DNA of 64,000 nt from a virus. The position numbers and the translations under genes were made by a program. Each line of letters begins with the position of its first letter. The stretch's first letter is position 1. Location of the stretch: positions 1 through 64,000 of IMG/VR virus record IMGVR_UViG_3300020474_000004. One strand, 5' to 3'. The notes beneath the pieces are model-generated. The model was given only the letters and a program-made list of their open reading frames with translations. It had not been told where the DNA came from and ran no database searches. Positions 2 through 8,165 of this stretch are shown in pieces.

Positions 2-58
2 GTTGTTGATGTTGTGTTCAATCAAGGTCAACCAGCTATCAGTGAGGTCCGCAAATGA
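2..58 (+). CDS. C-terminal end of an upstream gene (partial)
   Basis: An open frame enters from the left edge and ends at TGA 56-58. Only the last 18 residues are visible, ending ISEVRK. The stop overlaps the next start as ATGA, the coupling seen repeatedly further on, which supports a real coding end. There is too little sequence to assign a function. Confidence 0.45.
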   Translation, partial: VVDVVFNQGQPAISEVRK

Positions 59-288
59 GTCAGCAACCAACAAATAGTAACATACTTGACCCTCAATGTG
101 GACCTCTGGGGTTCGTTGTTGGGGACTGGGATGACATAAATGGATTTTATGCTGCTGTTCCCTGCGGCAAGGGTCTTATGGTCATCCACCAAGGGAAACA
201 ACTTAAAAAATGCAGAAACTCAACTAGCGCCCACAATTTCATAGAACGACACAAAAGGAAAAGGTCTGTCGCCCGTCTGCCTGTGTGA
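55..288 (+). CDS. Small hypothetical protein, 77 aa
   Basis: The ATG at 55 overlaps the stop of the preceding frame (ATGA), so the two are probably translationally coupled. The N-terminal half is neutral and Gly/Asp-containing (GFVVGDWDDINGFY). The C-terminal part is strongly basic (KQLKKCRN, then ERHKRKRSVAR), which could suit nucleic-acid binding, although that is only inference from charge. No family is recognised and no membrane segment is seen. It is followed by a new promoter at 314-342, so it closes the upstream operon. Confidence 0.55.
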   Translation: MSQQPTNSNILDPQCGPLGFVVGDWDDINGFYAAVPCGKGLMVIHQGKQLKKCRNSTSAHNFIERHKRKRSVARLPV

Positions 289-422: not shown

Positions 423-1166
423 ATGTCTTATGTAACTGACGGTTCCGTTCACTATTCTGGAATCAAGAACGAAGGTAAAACAGCAGAAATTCTAACAGAA
501 AAAAACACTTTTGGATGCAACGTAGAAACCCGTGGAGGCACAAAGTTCAAGGAAGATATGGTAGCAGGAGAAGTTAAAATCTCTGCCAAAGACAAGAAGA
601 GACTGTCTACTGGTTCTTTTGATTGGGTCAATACCAGTAAGGTAGTATCCGGTATTTTTGGCGATCATTTTGATACTTTCAAACGGGAAGTATATGGGAT
701 TCGTGAGATGGACATTGATGATCGTGTGACCTATTTTTCCACCATCCGTAAGAAGTTTGCTGATATTTGCTCTGCGGGATTTGATTATCTCTCTAAGGAT
801 CAAGTTTGCAATCTCATCGTTAATTCTATCACTCATGGAATTGACTGGGTATTTGTAAATGATAAGGAGCACAATGTACTCTATCAATTCAATCCGCAAG
901 ATCATCCTGCCGTAAAGATGGCACAAATCTGCGACTTTGTAAAATTCGCTGGTCGTGGTAAGTCCTCACGAAAAGTAATCTTTGTAAAGGATGGAGTTGA
1001 ATATGATTATGGTATTCGTCTTCGTATTACTTCTAACAACGGAGTGACTGCATTTCTCGGTCTTTCAAAGGCAAACAACAACTCTCAGATCGTGCTCAAA
1101 CTTCAGCAGGATTCTGCTCACAAACTCGTTAAGCAGTGGATCAACTGCACTACTATTTCTTACTGA
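423..1166 (+). CDS. Possible PD-(D/E)XK-type endonuclease, 247 aa
   Basis: I chose the ATG at 423 because the upstream in-frame GTG (381) sits inside the leader hairpin and the residues between look like leader. The N-terminal region has the layout of a restriction-endonuclease-like core: Glu16 in a helix, then RGGTKFKED (37-45) and a strand with E50-V-K52 and K56. Asp45 and Glu50/Lys52 or Lys56 are candidate metal-site residues, but the Asp-to-ExK spacing is short for the family, so this is a fold guess rather than a confident match. A GTKxxxD...K pattern followed by a GSFDWVNTSK stretch also fits. It is the first gene of a cassette with ParB-like, methyltransferase and ligase-like genes, which favours a DNA-processing role. 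It could instead be an unrelated cyanophage protein. Confidence 0.7.
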   Translation: MSYVTDGSVHYSGIKNEGKTAEILTEKNTFGCNVETRGGTKFKEDMVAGEVKISAKDKKRLSTGSFDWVNTSKVVSGIFGDHFDTFKREVYGIREMDIDDRVTYFSTIRKKFADICSAGFDYLSKDQVCNLIVNSITHGIDWVFVNDKEHNVLYQFNPQDHPAVKMAQICDFVKFAGRGKSSRKVIFVKDGVEYDYGIRLRITSNNGVTAFLGLSKANNNSQIVLKLQQDSAHKLVKQWINCTTISY

Positions 1167-1187
1167 TTCTTTTTTATCTTATACATC

Positions 1188-1397
1188 ATGGGACTCGGAC
1201 ACCACTGCGCTCTGCGAATCAAAAACAAATCATGGACTGCTGGCATCGATGATCCTTCCAAGGCAAACTACACTGTCGCTCAAAAATACTTTGAGGCAGA
1301 ATTGACCTGGAAGGAAAACATGAAAGCAACTATTGAACCATTTGTTGATTCTTTGGGTCATCAAGGTTTCAAAATCAAGGTAGCACACATCGGTTAG
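1188..1397 (+). CDS. Small hypothetical protein, 69 aa
   Basis: It begins 21 nt after the nuclease-like gene and probably shares its transcript. The leader before the ATG is T/A-rich with no Shine-Dalgarno site. The protein is mixed-charge (NYTVAQKYFEAELTWKENMK) with a predicted helical middle, no Cys pair and no membrane segment. No family is recognised. The inverted-repeat promoter of the next gene starts 9 nt after its stop. Confidence 0.6.
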   Translation: MGLGHHCALRIKNKSWTAGIDDPSKANYTVAQKYFEAELTWKENMKATIEPFVDSLGHQGFKIKVAHIG

Positions 1398-1405
1398 TTT
1401 TGCTT

Positions 1406-1440
1406 TAGCACTTGACAAAAGATGTCAAGTGCTATATAAT
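1406..1440 (+). promoter_or_regulatory. Consensus sigma70 promoter inside an 11-bp inverted repeat
   Basis: TTGACA (1412-1417), a 17-bp spacer and TATAAT (1435-1440) are a perfect match to the sigma70 consensus. The arms TAGCACTTGAC (1406-1416) and GTCAAGTGCTA (1424-1434) form a perfect 11-bp inverted repeat around a 7-nt centre. The repeat covers the -35 and the spacer up to the -10. It could be an operator, or a hairpin in read-through RNA from the upstream gene. Confidence 0.8.
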
Positions 1441-1464
1441 CACATTATTACCAACTGACAACAG

Positions 1465-2658
1465 ATGACAACTTCAATTCTGGTTCCTCAGATTCAAGTT
1501 CATGACGATAAGTATCAAGGTCAACGTATTGTTGAAACTTATCACAGAATTAAGGTTCACACCAATGAAGCACCTAAGATTCAAGATGTTACCAAGCGTC
1601 TTCTTAGACAGGAATCTTCACAATTAAAATATACTAATGAAATTATTAGGTTAGACCCTAAGGAAGTCAAACCAATGCAAACTAGGACAGCAGATCTTGT
1701 CCTGAGTAATGTTGCAGAAATCCTTCAATTCCTCAATAAAGAAGGGTATGATCCTACAGAACTTCCTCCTTGTGTGGTAAAGTTTCGTGGTGAGTATTAT
1801 ATCATAAACGGACACCATCAGACTGCTGCATTGATTGAACGAGGACAATCTCTGTGGATTTATGATTTATATGAATATACTGGTCCTAATGATTTTGATA
1901 GTTTTGAGAAGGCAGTAAAGAGTCTTGGTAAAAAGATCAATCTTGTTGGTGCTACACCAAAGCACGATCAAAAACCATTTGAACTTGTCAACGGTTACAT
2001 CCTAGATATTCAAAAGAATTATGAGAAAACTGGTGTAGCACATTTGCTTTGTGATGCAGATGGAATTCCAATTCCACTCACCAAAAAATGTGTAGAAACT
2101 GTCCTAGATGATGATGGATTTACTGCCCACTGGGGACCAGATAAATCCTCTGGTTTGAAGAGTGTTTATACTAAAGCAGTTCAAAAGATTCTTGAATGGG
2201 AAAATCACAACGCATCTAATATCCGCTCTTTTACTGATCCTTGGAAAAAGAAATTGATCCGTGCTGGTAAATTCAAGAGTGACGGAAAGATGTCTGCTGA
2301 TGGATATAAGTGCTTTATGGTTTGCACAGACAATCCAAACTCTGACGGTGTTAAGTTGTTTCTTCAAGCAATGTCTAGCACCTCTCCAGTCAGATTTCTT
2401 AGTTATTCTAAGGAAACTGATGATCCTCAAAAGGTGATTGAAAATGAAAAAGCATATCTTAAGAAAGCATATAATACTTATGTTGAGTCTGTAAAATTTC
2501 ACAATGATATGGTTGAGGATTTTGAAGATGATCGAGTCCGTGATAAACTGAAGAGTGTACCATATTCTTTTGAACAGTTTCTATCCCGTTTTGAATGGTG
2601 GGCAGTTGCACAACTAGATGATGAGGGTATTGATGTTATCCAACGGAACGTGCTATAA
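1465..2658 (+). CDS. ParB/Srx-fold domain protein, 397 aa
   Basis: Residues about 55-140 resemble the N-terminal ParB/sulfiredoxin fold: a segment setting up positions to modify (IRLDPKEVKPMQTR), then a strand, YYIINGHHQTAALIERG (111-127), where GHHQ takes the place of the ParB GHRR nucleotide-binding box. The remaining 250 residues are unassigned, rich in Lys and aromatic residues. Phage ParB-fold proteins are often found beside or fused to DNA methyltransferases, and here a methyltransferase follows directly, so a role in DNA recognition, nicking or modification is likely but unproven. It is driven by the inverted-repeat promoter at 1406-1440 with a leader of only about 18 nt. Its 3' end contains the promoter for the methyltransferase. 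Confidence 0.85.
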   Translation: MTTSILVPQIQVHDDKYQGQRIVETYHRIKVHTNEAPKIQDVTKRLLRQESSQLKYTNEIIRLDPKEVKPMQTRTADLVLSNVAEILQFLNKEGYDPTELPPCVVKFRGEYYIINGHHQTAALIERGQSLWIYDLYEYTGPNDFDSFEKAVKSLGKKINLVGATPKHDQKPFELVNGYILDIQKNYEKTGVAHLLCDADGIPIPLTKKCVETVLDDDGFTAHWGPDKSSGLKSVYTKAVQKILEWENHNASNIRSFTDPWKKKLIRAGKFKSDGKMSADGYKCFMVCTDNPNSDGVKLFLQAMSSTSPVRFLSYSKETDDPQKVIENEKAYLKKAYNTYVESVKFHNDMVEDFEDDRVRDKLKSVPYSFEQFLSRFEWWAVAQLDDEGIDVIQRNVL

Positions 2659-2659
2659 T
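2630..2659 (+). promoter_or_regulatory. Extended -10 promoter for the methyltransferase gene
   Basis: TTGATG (2630-2635), an 18-bp spacer and TATAAT (2654-2659), with TGC directly before the -10. It overlaps the end of the ParB-like gene and would start a transcript shortly before the ATG at 2681. Confidence 0.55.
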
Positions 2660-2680
2660 AGAAAAAGAGTAATTGTGTGA

Positions 2681-3703
2681 ATGTCGAATATTCAAATCTT
2701 AGAACAACCTGCTGAAGAGATGGTAAATCTAGACCAGACATTTGATCTTGTCTATATGGATCCACCATTCGGATTGCAGCGTGATTTTAAGATGCAAGAG
2801 TCTGATGGTTCGGAGAAAAGTTTCTCTGACCATTGGACTTCTTTTGATGCTTACACTGACTGGTATGCAGATATTATTAACAAAGCATGGTCTAAGTTGA
2901 ACAAAAATGGTTGGATGTACTGCCATAATAATTTCATCGGTAATGCTCTAGTAATGTCCAAGATTGATAAAAAGATTAGAGACGCATTTTATACTAACAT
3001 TTCATGGAAACGTAGTGGACCAAAGAATAATATCAAGAATGGTTGGGGTAACATTGTAGATTCAATTATTGTATTCAGAAAAGGTAGTCCGATGTTTGTC
3101 GTCGAATATACCTCACTTGATCCTGTTTATGCTGCAAATAGTTTTCAGAATAGAGATGACATCGGTCACTATGCTCTCGCAAAAGTAACAGGAGAAAAGA
3201 GCAGACCATGTGCTAAGTTTGAATTTACTGTTGAAACTAACGAATTGGATTATATGGGAGAGAAAATTAAAAAAACATACAATCCCGACTATGGGTTTCG
3301 TGTAACTAGGGAAAAATTGGAAGAACTGGACGCACAGGATAGATTGCACTACGGTACAAATAATATCTACAAAAAAATCTATTCTCATGAGTCCAAAGGT
3401 GTTCCCGTGCAAAATCTATGGGATGATGTATATTTTATCAGCAGAAGTGAGAAGAACAAACGTAAGTATCCTACACAAAAACCTCTTAAATTGTTAGAAC
3501 GTATCATAAAGTCATCATGTCCTGATGACGGATGGGTTCTAGATCCTTTCTGCGGATCAGGAACAACAGCAATCTCATCATATAACTTAGGCAGGAATTG
3601 TGTGACGATGGATGTTAATCCAGACTCTATTCGGATTGCACAAGAGACAATCGATGAACTGTCCACTAACACTTGCAATTCCTTGATGAATACGCTATCT
3701 TAG
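2681..3703 (+). CDS. DNA methyltransferase, beta class (N6-adenine or N4-cytosine), 340 aa
   Basis: Motif IV, DPPF (27-30), lies near the N terminus. The AdoMet-binding motif I, DPFCGSG (288-294), lies near the C terminus, preceded by YPTQKP, which is motif X. The order IV, target-recognition region, X, I defines class beta amino-methyltransferases, which act on N6 of adenine or N4 of cytosine in DNA. The target-recognition segment should fall around residues 110-250; the recognised site cannot be read from the sequence. The likely role is to modify phage DNA against host nucleases or to act in regulation. It follows a ParB-like gene and precedes a ligase-like gene. The last 50 bp of the gene also carry a copy of the recurring promoter cassette. 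Confidence 0.92.
   Translation: MSNIQILEQPAEEMVNLDQTFDLVYMDPPFGLQRDFKMQESDGSEKSFSDHWTSFDAYTDWYADIINKAWSKLNKNGWMYCHNNFIGNALVMSKIDKKIRDAFYTNISWKRSGPKNNIKNGWGNIVDSIIVFRKGSPMFVVEYTSLDPVYAANSFQNRDDIGHYALAKVTGEKSRPCAKFEFTVETNELDYMGEKIKKTYNPDYGFRVTREKLEELDAQDRLHYGTNNIYKKIYSHESKGVPVQNLWDDVYFISRSEKNKRKYPTQKPLKLLERIIKSSCPDDGWVLDPFCGSGTTAISSYNLGRNCVTMDVNPDSIRIAQETIDELSTNTCNSLMNTLS
3660..3701 (+). promoter_or_regulatory. Promoter cassette copy 1 (divergent)
   Basis: GTCCACTAACACTTGCAA (3661-3678) matches the element GTCCACTACCCCTTGC found at 4623 and 5901. TTGCAA (3673-3678), a 17-bp spacer and TATCTT (3696-3701) give promoter geometry. It lies within the end of the methyltransferase gene and directly before the ATG at 3708. 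Confidence 0.5.
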
Positions 3704-3707
3704 GAAT

Positions 3708-4616
3708 ATGAAAAACACACACCTCCAACATCCCGAAGATTCCATCCTGACGGGTGATCTTTCTGCACTTGATTGGTTTCTTGCTGATAGTGATTTATCA
3801 GTAAAGATTGATGGTGCTCCCGCTATTGTTTACGGTACAAACCCTGCTAATGGAAAATTCTTCGTCGGCACCAAAAGTGTCTTCAACAAAGTCAAAATCA
3901 AAATTAACCAAACGCATGAAGAAATTGAGCAAAATCACACTGGGGCAGTTGCTAAAATTCTGCATCATTCTCTTGATTGCCTCACTCCTACCACCGATGT
4001 TATACAATGTGATTTTATTGGGTTTGGTGGTGATGATACTTTCACACCTAATACGCTGACCTATGTGTTTGATGATATTATCTATCAGGATATTATCGTA
4101 GCACCTCATACAATCTACACAACCGACACAAATGATCTGCGTGATGCTGTTGCTCACCCGTTGGTAGATTACGACTTCACTGATACTGACCGCTGTAAGT
4201 ATGTGCGTCCTCGTGCATGGCAACTCGACGAAGATTTCGATCAGATCGTAGCTTTTGCCCGTCAAATGTCCACCATGTGTGATTTCATCGACGCGAAGCA
4301 ATCACGTCAGATTCAGCAACAACTTAACAGCATCATTCGTGCTGGGTTGGATATTGATGACATCACGCTAGAAGCACTGGCATTTGCGAATCAAATCGAT
4401 CTAAGTTTGCTACGTCTGTGGTCATTAGTCAAGTCAATCAAGGATGATATGCTGTTTTTGATGCGTAACAATGGACCCAAAGCGTTCATCGGTCGCAAGC
4501 AATGTGGTGGCGAAGGATATGTTCGCACCAACGAATATGGCATGTTTAAGTTAGTCAATCGCTCGTCATTCTCTCACGCAAACTTCAACAATACCCGGTT
4601 CTCCTGTGCCAGTTGA
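3708..4616 (+). CDS. Nucleotidyltransferase-like protein with DNA/RNA-ligase KxDG motif, 302 aa
   Basis: Residues 31-43 read SVKIDGAPAIVYG, the KxDG(x6)G motif I of covalent nucleotidyltransferases (ATP or NAD ligases, capping enzymes), with Lys33 as the candidate adenylylated residue. KFFVGTKS (50-57) and VIQCDFIGFGG (about 98-108) follow as strand motifs. EGYVRTN and FKLVNRS (Lys281) near the C terminus suit motifs IV and V. There is no OB-fold domain of normal size after motif V, so it may be a minimal or divergent transferase rather than a standard ligase. From memory, phage proteins of this type are grouped in a DUF family (DUF6267), which I could not verify. It follows the methyltransferase by 4 nt, and repair, end-sealing or nucleotide modification are all possible. 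Confidence 0.8.
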   Translation: MKNTHLQHPEDSILTGDLSALDWFLADSDLSVKIDGAPAIVYGTNPANGKFFVGTKSVFNKVKIKINQTHEEIEQNHTGAVAKILHHSLDCLTPTTDVIQCDFIGFGGDDTFTPNTLTYVFDDIIYQDIIVAPHTIYTTDTNDLRDAVAHPLVDYDFTDTDRCKYVRPRAWQLDEDFDQIVAFARQMSTMCDFIDAKQSRQIQQQLNSIIRAGLDIDDITLEALAFANQIDLSLLRLWSLVKSIKDDMLFLMRNNGPKAFIGRKQCGGEGYVRTNEYGMFKLVNRSSFSHANFNNTRFSCAS

Positions 4617-7616: not shown

Positions 7617-7804
7617 ACACAACAACCGCAACTTACAAAATTGATGTGACACAAGAGTGTGGAAATGTTCTCACTTATATGAGAACGATGCCCACACGCC
7701 CAACAACACATAGAGGCATTAAATCACACAACACAAAACTAGAAAATTGGGCAAAGAATGTTTGCCATAACTGGAAAGAAATCAACGTCACTTTGCTTCC
7801 CTAA
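7613..7804 (+). CDS. Small basic hypothetical protein, 63 aa
   Basis: ATGA overlap with the previous stop. Unlike its neighbours it is basic (TMPTRPTTHRGIKSHNTKLE, then WAKNVCHNW), with a Pro/Thr/His-rich centre. It is 1 nt from the HExxH gene start. It may act with the adjacent acidic protein, but that rests only on the coupling. Confidence 0.6.
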   Translation: MNTTTATYKIDVTQECGNVLTYMRTMPTRPTTHRGIKSHNTKLENWAKNVCHNWKEINVTLLP

Positions 7805-7805
7805 A

Positions 7806-8165
7806 ATGTTATTTGTTTCAGGTAAATCAAGGTTCTCCGATCTTACTTCGAGAGTTTACGAGTTTTTTACTGCGATATACGAGATTCGCAGCGACGTAGA
7901 AATTTACTCCTGCAATCTACGAGATGAGAACGCCCTTGGATTTACAGAGGTAAATGGTGATGAGCAATTTGTTCAGGTACATCATAGTCTGACATATGAG
8001 GAGCATGTGAAAACAATTCTCCACGAACTTGTCCATGTTGTTCAGAACGAGAATGGTATGATTGACGAGGTTGAGAGAGAATCACAAGCATATAATATGG
8101 AGGAGGTTCTTTACAAGAAGTGGTGTGCCAGTCAGAGAAGTGTCACAACCCCCCTTGTAATTTGA
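7806..8165 (+). CDS. Minimal HExxH zinc metallopeptidase-like protein, 119 aa
   Basis: ATG 7806 is one base after the previous stop; an upstream ATG at 7758 is in-frame but lies in the preceding gene. The motif HELVHVVQ (73-80) has HExxH with His73 and His77 as zinc ligands and Glu74 as the general base. Glu92, in ERESQAY, is the likely third ligand, a layout found in gluzincin or SprT-like and IrrE-like domains. At 119 aa this is a minimal version. Short phage proteins of this kind might cut host or phage proteins or act only as metal-binding domains. The final codons are shared with promoter cassette copy 4. Confidence 0.78.
   Translation: MLFVSGKSRFSDLTSRVYEFFTAIYEIRSDVEIYSCNLRDENALGFTEVNGDEQFVQVHHSLTYEEHVKTILHELVHVVQNENGMIDEVERESQAYNMEEVLYKKWCASQRSVTTPLVI

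Follow-up and report, generated by a model that had tools for sequence, protein, structure and literature searches.

Restriction-modification (R-M) carried by viruses is already known. Chloroviruses have adjacent R-M genes, with endonucleases that are believed to break down the DNA of the host (PMC7019647). Cyanomyoviruses lack the host-DNA-degrading genes denA, ndd and denB, and also a homologue of gp30, the T4 DNA ligase (PMC2984593). One cyanophage, S-SM2, already has an annotated endonuclease, and nonspecific nicking activity has been reported for the ParB-methylase protein Bce_0392 (PMC5512222). Here we describe a locus near the left edge of a 64,000-nucleotide stretch of viral DNA (the window), which is the left 64 kilobases (kb) of an 80.9-kb virus record (IMGVR_UViG_3300020474_000004). 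Four of its genes, for a nuclease-like protein of a family that we call F4, a ParB-like protein, a DNA methyltransferase and a protein of the DUF6267 family, had been read as one cassette. They are two things: a variable insert (423-3703) and a separate core gene, DUF6267 (3708-4616). We give about an even chance to the insert being a mobile, phage-borne R-M-like module aimed at host or competitor DNA.

The virus, which is uncultured, is related to the T4-like viruses that infect ocean cyanobacteria; closest to it in DNA are two T4-like cyanophages of the family Kyanoviridae, Bellamy and S-SM2. A contig identical to the window over the shared 8.2 kb (L002) adds 1002 bases to the left of the window edge, and its extension carries a UvsW-type helicase (PF04851, phrog_16), followed by an open reading frame (ORF) of 77 amino acids (aa). 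In S-SM2 the helicase, a 69-aa ORF (SSM2_069) and DUF6267 are adjacent without an insert, that is, the site is empty; DNA similarity between the window and S-SM2 picks up again at the start of DUF6267. The insert holds F4, a small ORF, the ParB/Srx-like gene and the beta-class methyltransferase. The initial annotation, made from the letters of the window alone, had called four consecutive genes. All four ORFs (247, 397, 340 and 302 aa, + strand) are real and in place, but a 69-aa ORF between the first two had been overlooked.

The protein encoded at 2681-3703 is, judged by its sequence, certainly a DNA methyltransferase of a class compatible with type II R-M (PF01555, 7.2e-35; phrog_67, 4.9e-42; PADLOC MTase_II, 2.1e-40). 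DPPF at residue 27 stands ahead of DPFCGSGTT at residue 288, which places the enzyme in the beta class, as had been proposed with certainty; DPPF makes the N6-adenine type most likely. Relatives in IMG/VR number at least 85, and the 80 kept are mostly 66-81% identical.

F4 is likely to be nuclease-like because of its invariant E/D/SxK positions and its predicted topology. The family was gathered from IMG/VR (133 relatives, 80 kept), and residue conservation was counted over 58 distinct proteins. E17, D45, D67 and W68 are invariant, residue 54 is S or T throughout, and 57 of the 58 have K56; the spacing from D to S is eight residues (D-x8-S-x-K) in 49. The structure model (pLDDT 90.5) has a predicted alpha-beta-beta-beta core, with E17 on the helix, D45 opening the strand pair and S54-x-K56 on the strand that follows. 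By our own assignment from this predicted model, the elements follow one another as they would in a PD-(D/E)XK core. The first protein had been called nuclease-like in the initial annotation as well, and the residues and predicted topology bear this out, but a significant match to a solved nuclease did not emerge.

The fold searches bear on another possibility, namely that F4 is a nuclease with a different job (homing-type, junction-resolving or DNA-processing), kept near modification genes by chance. Its best nuclease match in the PDB is the PD-(D/E)XK homing endonuclease I-Ssp6803I, which is not significant (probability ~0.5, E 0.45), and weak matches in a viral fold library carry the names NO VEIN C-terminal and RecU. 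F4 also adjoins DUF6267, or stands near a phrog_1574-type gene, where there is no methyltransferase. Such a job would leave the tight coupling of F4 to the methyltransferase in many loci to chance, and we regard it as quite unlikely. The viral-library matches at probability 1.00 are to proteins of no named function, including two from Synechococcus phages; S-CAM22, named by one of the viral-library matches, has no F4 relative by profile. A tblastn search of isolate phage records found relatives neither of F4 nor of the ParB-like protein, and none of F4 were found in bacteria and archaea, where one genome per species was scanned by a procedure that depends on short peptide patterns. In a series of contigs (L085-L104, L110-L146) F4 has no methyltransferase in its neighbourhood and often lies close to DUF6267 or to a gene of ~250-260 aa belonging to one family.

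Linkage and co-occurrence tie F4 to the methyltransferase. Among 24 distinct loci having both genes, the two overlap or lie within 42 base pairs in 15, in varied surroundings, and the ParB-like gene stands between them in 5. A PF01555 methyltransferase is encoded on 9 of the 24 F4 contigs that reach 35 kb, including all five that reach 100 kb, and among 22 contigs selected by gp6 or DUF6267 one has it above cut-off (Fisher p 0.011); F4 in turn is present in 13 of 24 methyltransferase contigs and in 0 of the 22 (Fisher p 3e-5), these tests ignoring shared ancestry, the contigs being incomplete, and the F4 and methyltransferase contig samples carrying an adjacency bias. The two genes co-occur even when kilobases apart within one contig. 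Within sampling limits, F4 and the methyltransferase show the gene linkage or co-occurrence that a type II R-M system would have. The recurrent unit is a nuclease plus a methyltransferase, which points to R-M rather than to repair or end joining.

Besides the limits of these tests, several observations weigh against the R-M reading. S stands in F4 where the E of ExK is usual in PD-(D/E)XK enzymes. Identity with a known endonuclease finds no support: searches with F4 gave no match in NCBIfam or PADLOC, nothing above cut-off in Pfam, and nothing at E ≤ 0.001 in the PDB fold search. Its likeness to an endonuclease of a recognised restriction family is one of motif and topology only. A profile comparison with the MjaI group of S-SM2 gave a probability of 6%, and the common D-x8-S-x-K spacing is a lead only. 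F4 is missing from the vicinity of many methyltransferases of this family, and a methyltransferase is lacking in several of the F4 contigs of 35-100 kb, although those are fragments. Finally, similarities of F4 and of the methyltransferase are not clearly correlated over the 24 loci (Mantel r 0.19, p 0.12); they are correlated in the 12 loci that bear the helicase (r 0.61, p 0.013). The lack of a clear overall correlation implies that partners have been exchanged: the pair is recurrent but exchangeable.

Exchange of partners also suits the most serious rival, in which an orphan methyltransferase gives protection from restriction by the host and the genes for F4 and the ParB-like protein are independent, unrelated cargo of a recombination hotspot. 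The methyltransferase gene is preceded in different phages by F4, ParB-like, helicase or small genes, and its tree requires at least five changes of F4 linkage and at least nine of ParB linkage. The overlap of F4 and methyltransferase frames in many contexts, together with their co-occurrence over kilobases, is what independent cargo would not lead one to expect, and we consider an orphan enzyme possible but doubtful.

If the insert is an R-M-like module, the methyltransferase would mark the phage genome at its target sequence and F4, as the partner endonuclease, would cut DNA without the mark. The DNA attacked may be the host chromosome (for nucleotide supply and host shut-off), that of co-infecting phages, or both; host DNA is proposed because cyanomyoviruses are without denA, ndd and denB. 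The ParB-like protein, made from its own palindromic promoter, could serve as an optional DNA-binding or nicking accessory. DUF6267 would lie outside the module and merely mark the insertion border. This scheme is grounded directly in the family-level identities, the invariant residues that resemble an active site, the linkage and co-occurrence of the genes and the empty site; from these we infer cleavage, a shared specificity, the target and the ParB role. As far as the libraries and literature searched show, the F4 family and its pairing with a methyltransferase are undescribed.

The identification of the 397-aa protein as ParB-like is supported but weak. The window protein matches ParBc_2 (PF08857) at 0.0033, under the cut-off, whereas its relative in contig L060 lies above it (2e-5; 25.2 vs 23.6 bits). 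The ParB fold proposed earlier is supported by the relative and is faint in the window protein itself. A GHH motif occupies residues 116-118, and in several loci the gene lies upstream of the methyltransferase gene. Promoters had been placed at 314, 1406, 2630 and 3660. Only the site at 1412 stands out, with a perfect 12/12 match. Those at 314 and 2630 match at 10/12, and the region yields 22 sites vs 15.4 +/- 3.3 by chance; none is listed near 3660. An inverted repeat (CACTTGACA-AAAGA-TGTCAAGTG) spans the -35 box and the spacer of the ParB promoter. It is a probable operator or hairpin, a self-regulation operator and a hairpin being both possible from the sequence. In L003 a paired change preserves the symmetry, and in L060 another perfect repeat occupies this position; the repeat is imperfect in L004, L039, L040 and L046.

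The ParB-like partner brings up a further alternative: a type IV-like or modification-dependent nuclease module directed at competitors' modified DNA, in which the ParB-like protein is a nucleoside triphosphate (NTP)-dependent component, as in GmrSD. ParB-like domains are found in GmrSD and in ParB-methylase proteins with nicking or NTPase activity (PMC5512222). GmrSD, however, pairs its ParB-like GmrS with an HNH domain (PMC5512222), and the locus gave no HNH family match. Most F4-methyltransferase pairs, moreover, have no ParB gene between them. We find this alternative very improbable.

Table 1. Features at the left edge of the window, with the basis of each assignment or its counterpart elsewhere.
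Feature	Position	Strand	Basis or remark
77-aa ORF, left of the insert	55..288	+	positional counterpart of S-SM2 SSM2_069
F4-family 247-aa nuclease-like protein, proposed endonuclease of the module	423..1166	+	kept residues and predicted core
69-aa ORF of unknown function	1188..1397	+	relative at the same place in L003
Sigma-70-type promoter TTGACA-17-TATAAT with 9-bp inverted repeat, ahead of the ParB-like gene	1409..1440	+	
ParB/Srx-like protein, 397 aa; C-terminal region of unknown function	1465..2658	+	PF08857, family alignment
Beta-class N6/N4 DNA methyltransferase, 340 aa	2681..3703	+	PF01555, phrog_67, PADLOC MTase_II
DUF6267, ligase-like covalent nucleotidyltransferase (putative), 302 aa	3708..4616	+	PF19782; right border of the insert

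The 302-aa protein matches DUF6267 (PF19782) at 1.2e-78, a family left without a function by Pfam and PHROGs and of which a literature search by that name found no mention. K33, D35, G36, D102, E269, G270, K281 and R285 are invariant over 134-136 aligned sequences, so that the KxDG nucleotidyltransferase signature of the initial annotation proves to be a fixed feature of the family. The motifs KxDG, QGD, EG-x-V (EGYV) and K-x-V-x-R come in the order of covalent nucleotidyltransferases and, by our own assignment, would correspond to ligase motifs I, III, IV and V. The first 12 matches in a PDB fold search are all DNA ligases, ATP-dependent ones at the head, each of them weak (best E 0.028, probability 0.63); by sequence the protein matches neither PF01068 nor PF09414. 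The profile and structure searches proposed earlier for the 247-, 397- and 302-aa proteins have thus given weak fold matches led by DNA ligases for the last and a ParB match in a relative of the second, but for F4 a fold match that is not significant.

Is DUF6267 part of the same system? The suggestion had been that all four genes form a single modification, anti-restriction or repair system, in which the ligase-like enzyme would join ends. The genes are indeed adjacent and collinear in the window, and among the loci fetched the full order (nuclease, ParB, methyltransferase, DUF6267) recurs only in L002, which is identical to the window, in L003 and L004 and, with one opposite-strand ORF interposed, in L060. 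Against this, DUF6267 is a near-universal cyanophage core gene without the other three. Of the 467 phage records that contain it, 369 carry the name Synechococcus and 61 the name Cyanophage (a gp6 match is found in 373 and 61, respectively), and it is often located in the replication gene cluster; in several cyanophages it lies downstream of gp41 and MazG, ahead of a CTP_transf-like gene. It occurs mostly away from methyltransferases of this kind, and the insert is missing at the S-SM2 site. Gene order is therefore not conserved as a unit, and we can give a four-gene system hardly any credence. As to the CTP_transf-like neighbour, PHROG 455 covers both it and DUF6267 (L157 5902-7044), which suggests fused forms in some phages.

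The absence of a gp30 homologue from cyanomyoviruses makes DUF6267 a candidate, by its sequence motifs, for their missing ligase. Six Kyanoviridae genomes have neither PF01068 nor PF09414, and DUF6267 is in all six. Plain replacement of gp30 is weakened, and is not established, since Stenotrophomonas phage DLP6 carries both a PF01068 ligase and DUF6267.

The neighbourhood of the helicase and DUF6267 looks like a spot of repeated insertion of restriction and modification genes, because S-SM2 has an MjaI-family gene there and Bellamy an Eco57I-type methylase. The S-SM2 gene (SSM2_066; PF09568, 1.2e-46; annotated as type II) lies two genes upstream of the helicase, next to SSM2_067, a 379-aa protein without a Pfam match. 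It corresponds to L150 4682-5209 and has 10 relatives in IMG/VR, one being S-SM2 itself. Between the helicase and DUF6267, Bellamy has genes 85-88, for a second helicase, the Eco57I-type methylase and two small proteins, in one of which there is a weak N6_Mtase match. Gene 87 (L151 5016-5579; 187 aa) adjoins the methylase and has a D...QFKFK stretch that by eye is PD-(D/E)XK (QxK)-like. Farther along the window (7758-8165) a 135-aa protein contains HELVH and weakly matches zinc metallopeptidases (PF06114, slightly below cut-off).

The locus makes two cyanomyovirus gaps (PMC2984593) testable: how host DNA is degraded without denA, ndd and denB, and whether these viruses have a ligase of their own or none. 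It also presents F4 as an unnamed virus family with a concrete predicted partner and without relatives, by tblastn, among the isolate phages whose records were searched. The strongest form of the proposal would be that F4, the ParB-like protein and the methyltransferase make up a new, virus-only R-M type that destroys host DNA in place of denA/ndd/denB, and that DUF6267 is an unrecognised polynucleotide ligase replacing gp30. We think it unlikely that all of this holds together.

How does the locus compare with described systems? Like chlorovirus R-M (e.g., CviJI; PMC7019647), it would place adjacent endonuclease and DNA methyltransferase genes in a lytic virus. The virus lineage and the host are different, F4 is of no known endonuclease family, some cyanophage loci add a ParB-like partner, and the module is known here from its genes. 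SSM2_066 is an endonuclease-type gene that a closely related phage carries upstream of this helicase, with a D-x8-S-I-K spacing that recalls that of most F4 proteins, but it has no detectable F4 homology (6%) and lies on the other side of the helicase. Bellamy genes 85-88 are likewise modification-type cargo between the same helicase and DUF6267; they differ in methylase family and by the second helicase, in a genome without F4. The ParB-methylase proteins (Bce_0392) also couple a ParB-like domain with an adenine methylase, and PHROG 67 is annotated as DNA methyltransferase; the window has separate genes instead, a ParB-like protein of 397 aa whose C-terminal region is long, and F4 besides. 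Finally, DUF6267 resembles T4 gp30 and the RNA ligases (PF01068, PF09414) in motif order and in its individually weak, DNA-ligase-led fold matches, and differs from them by a helical insert that separates motif III from motif IV and by ending without a domain beyond motif V.

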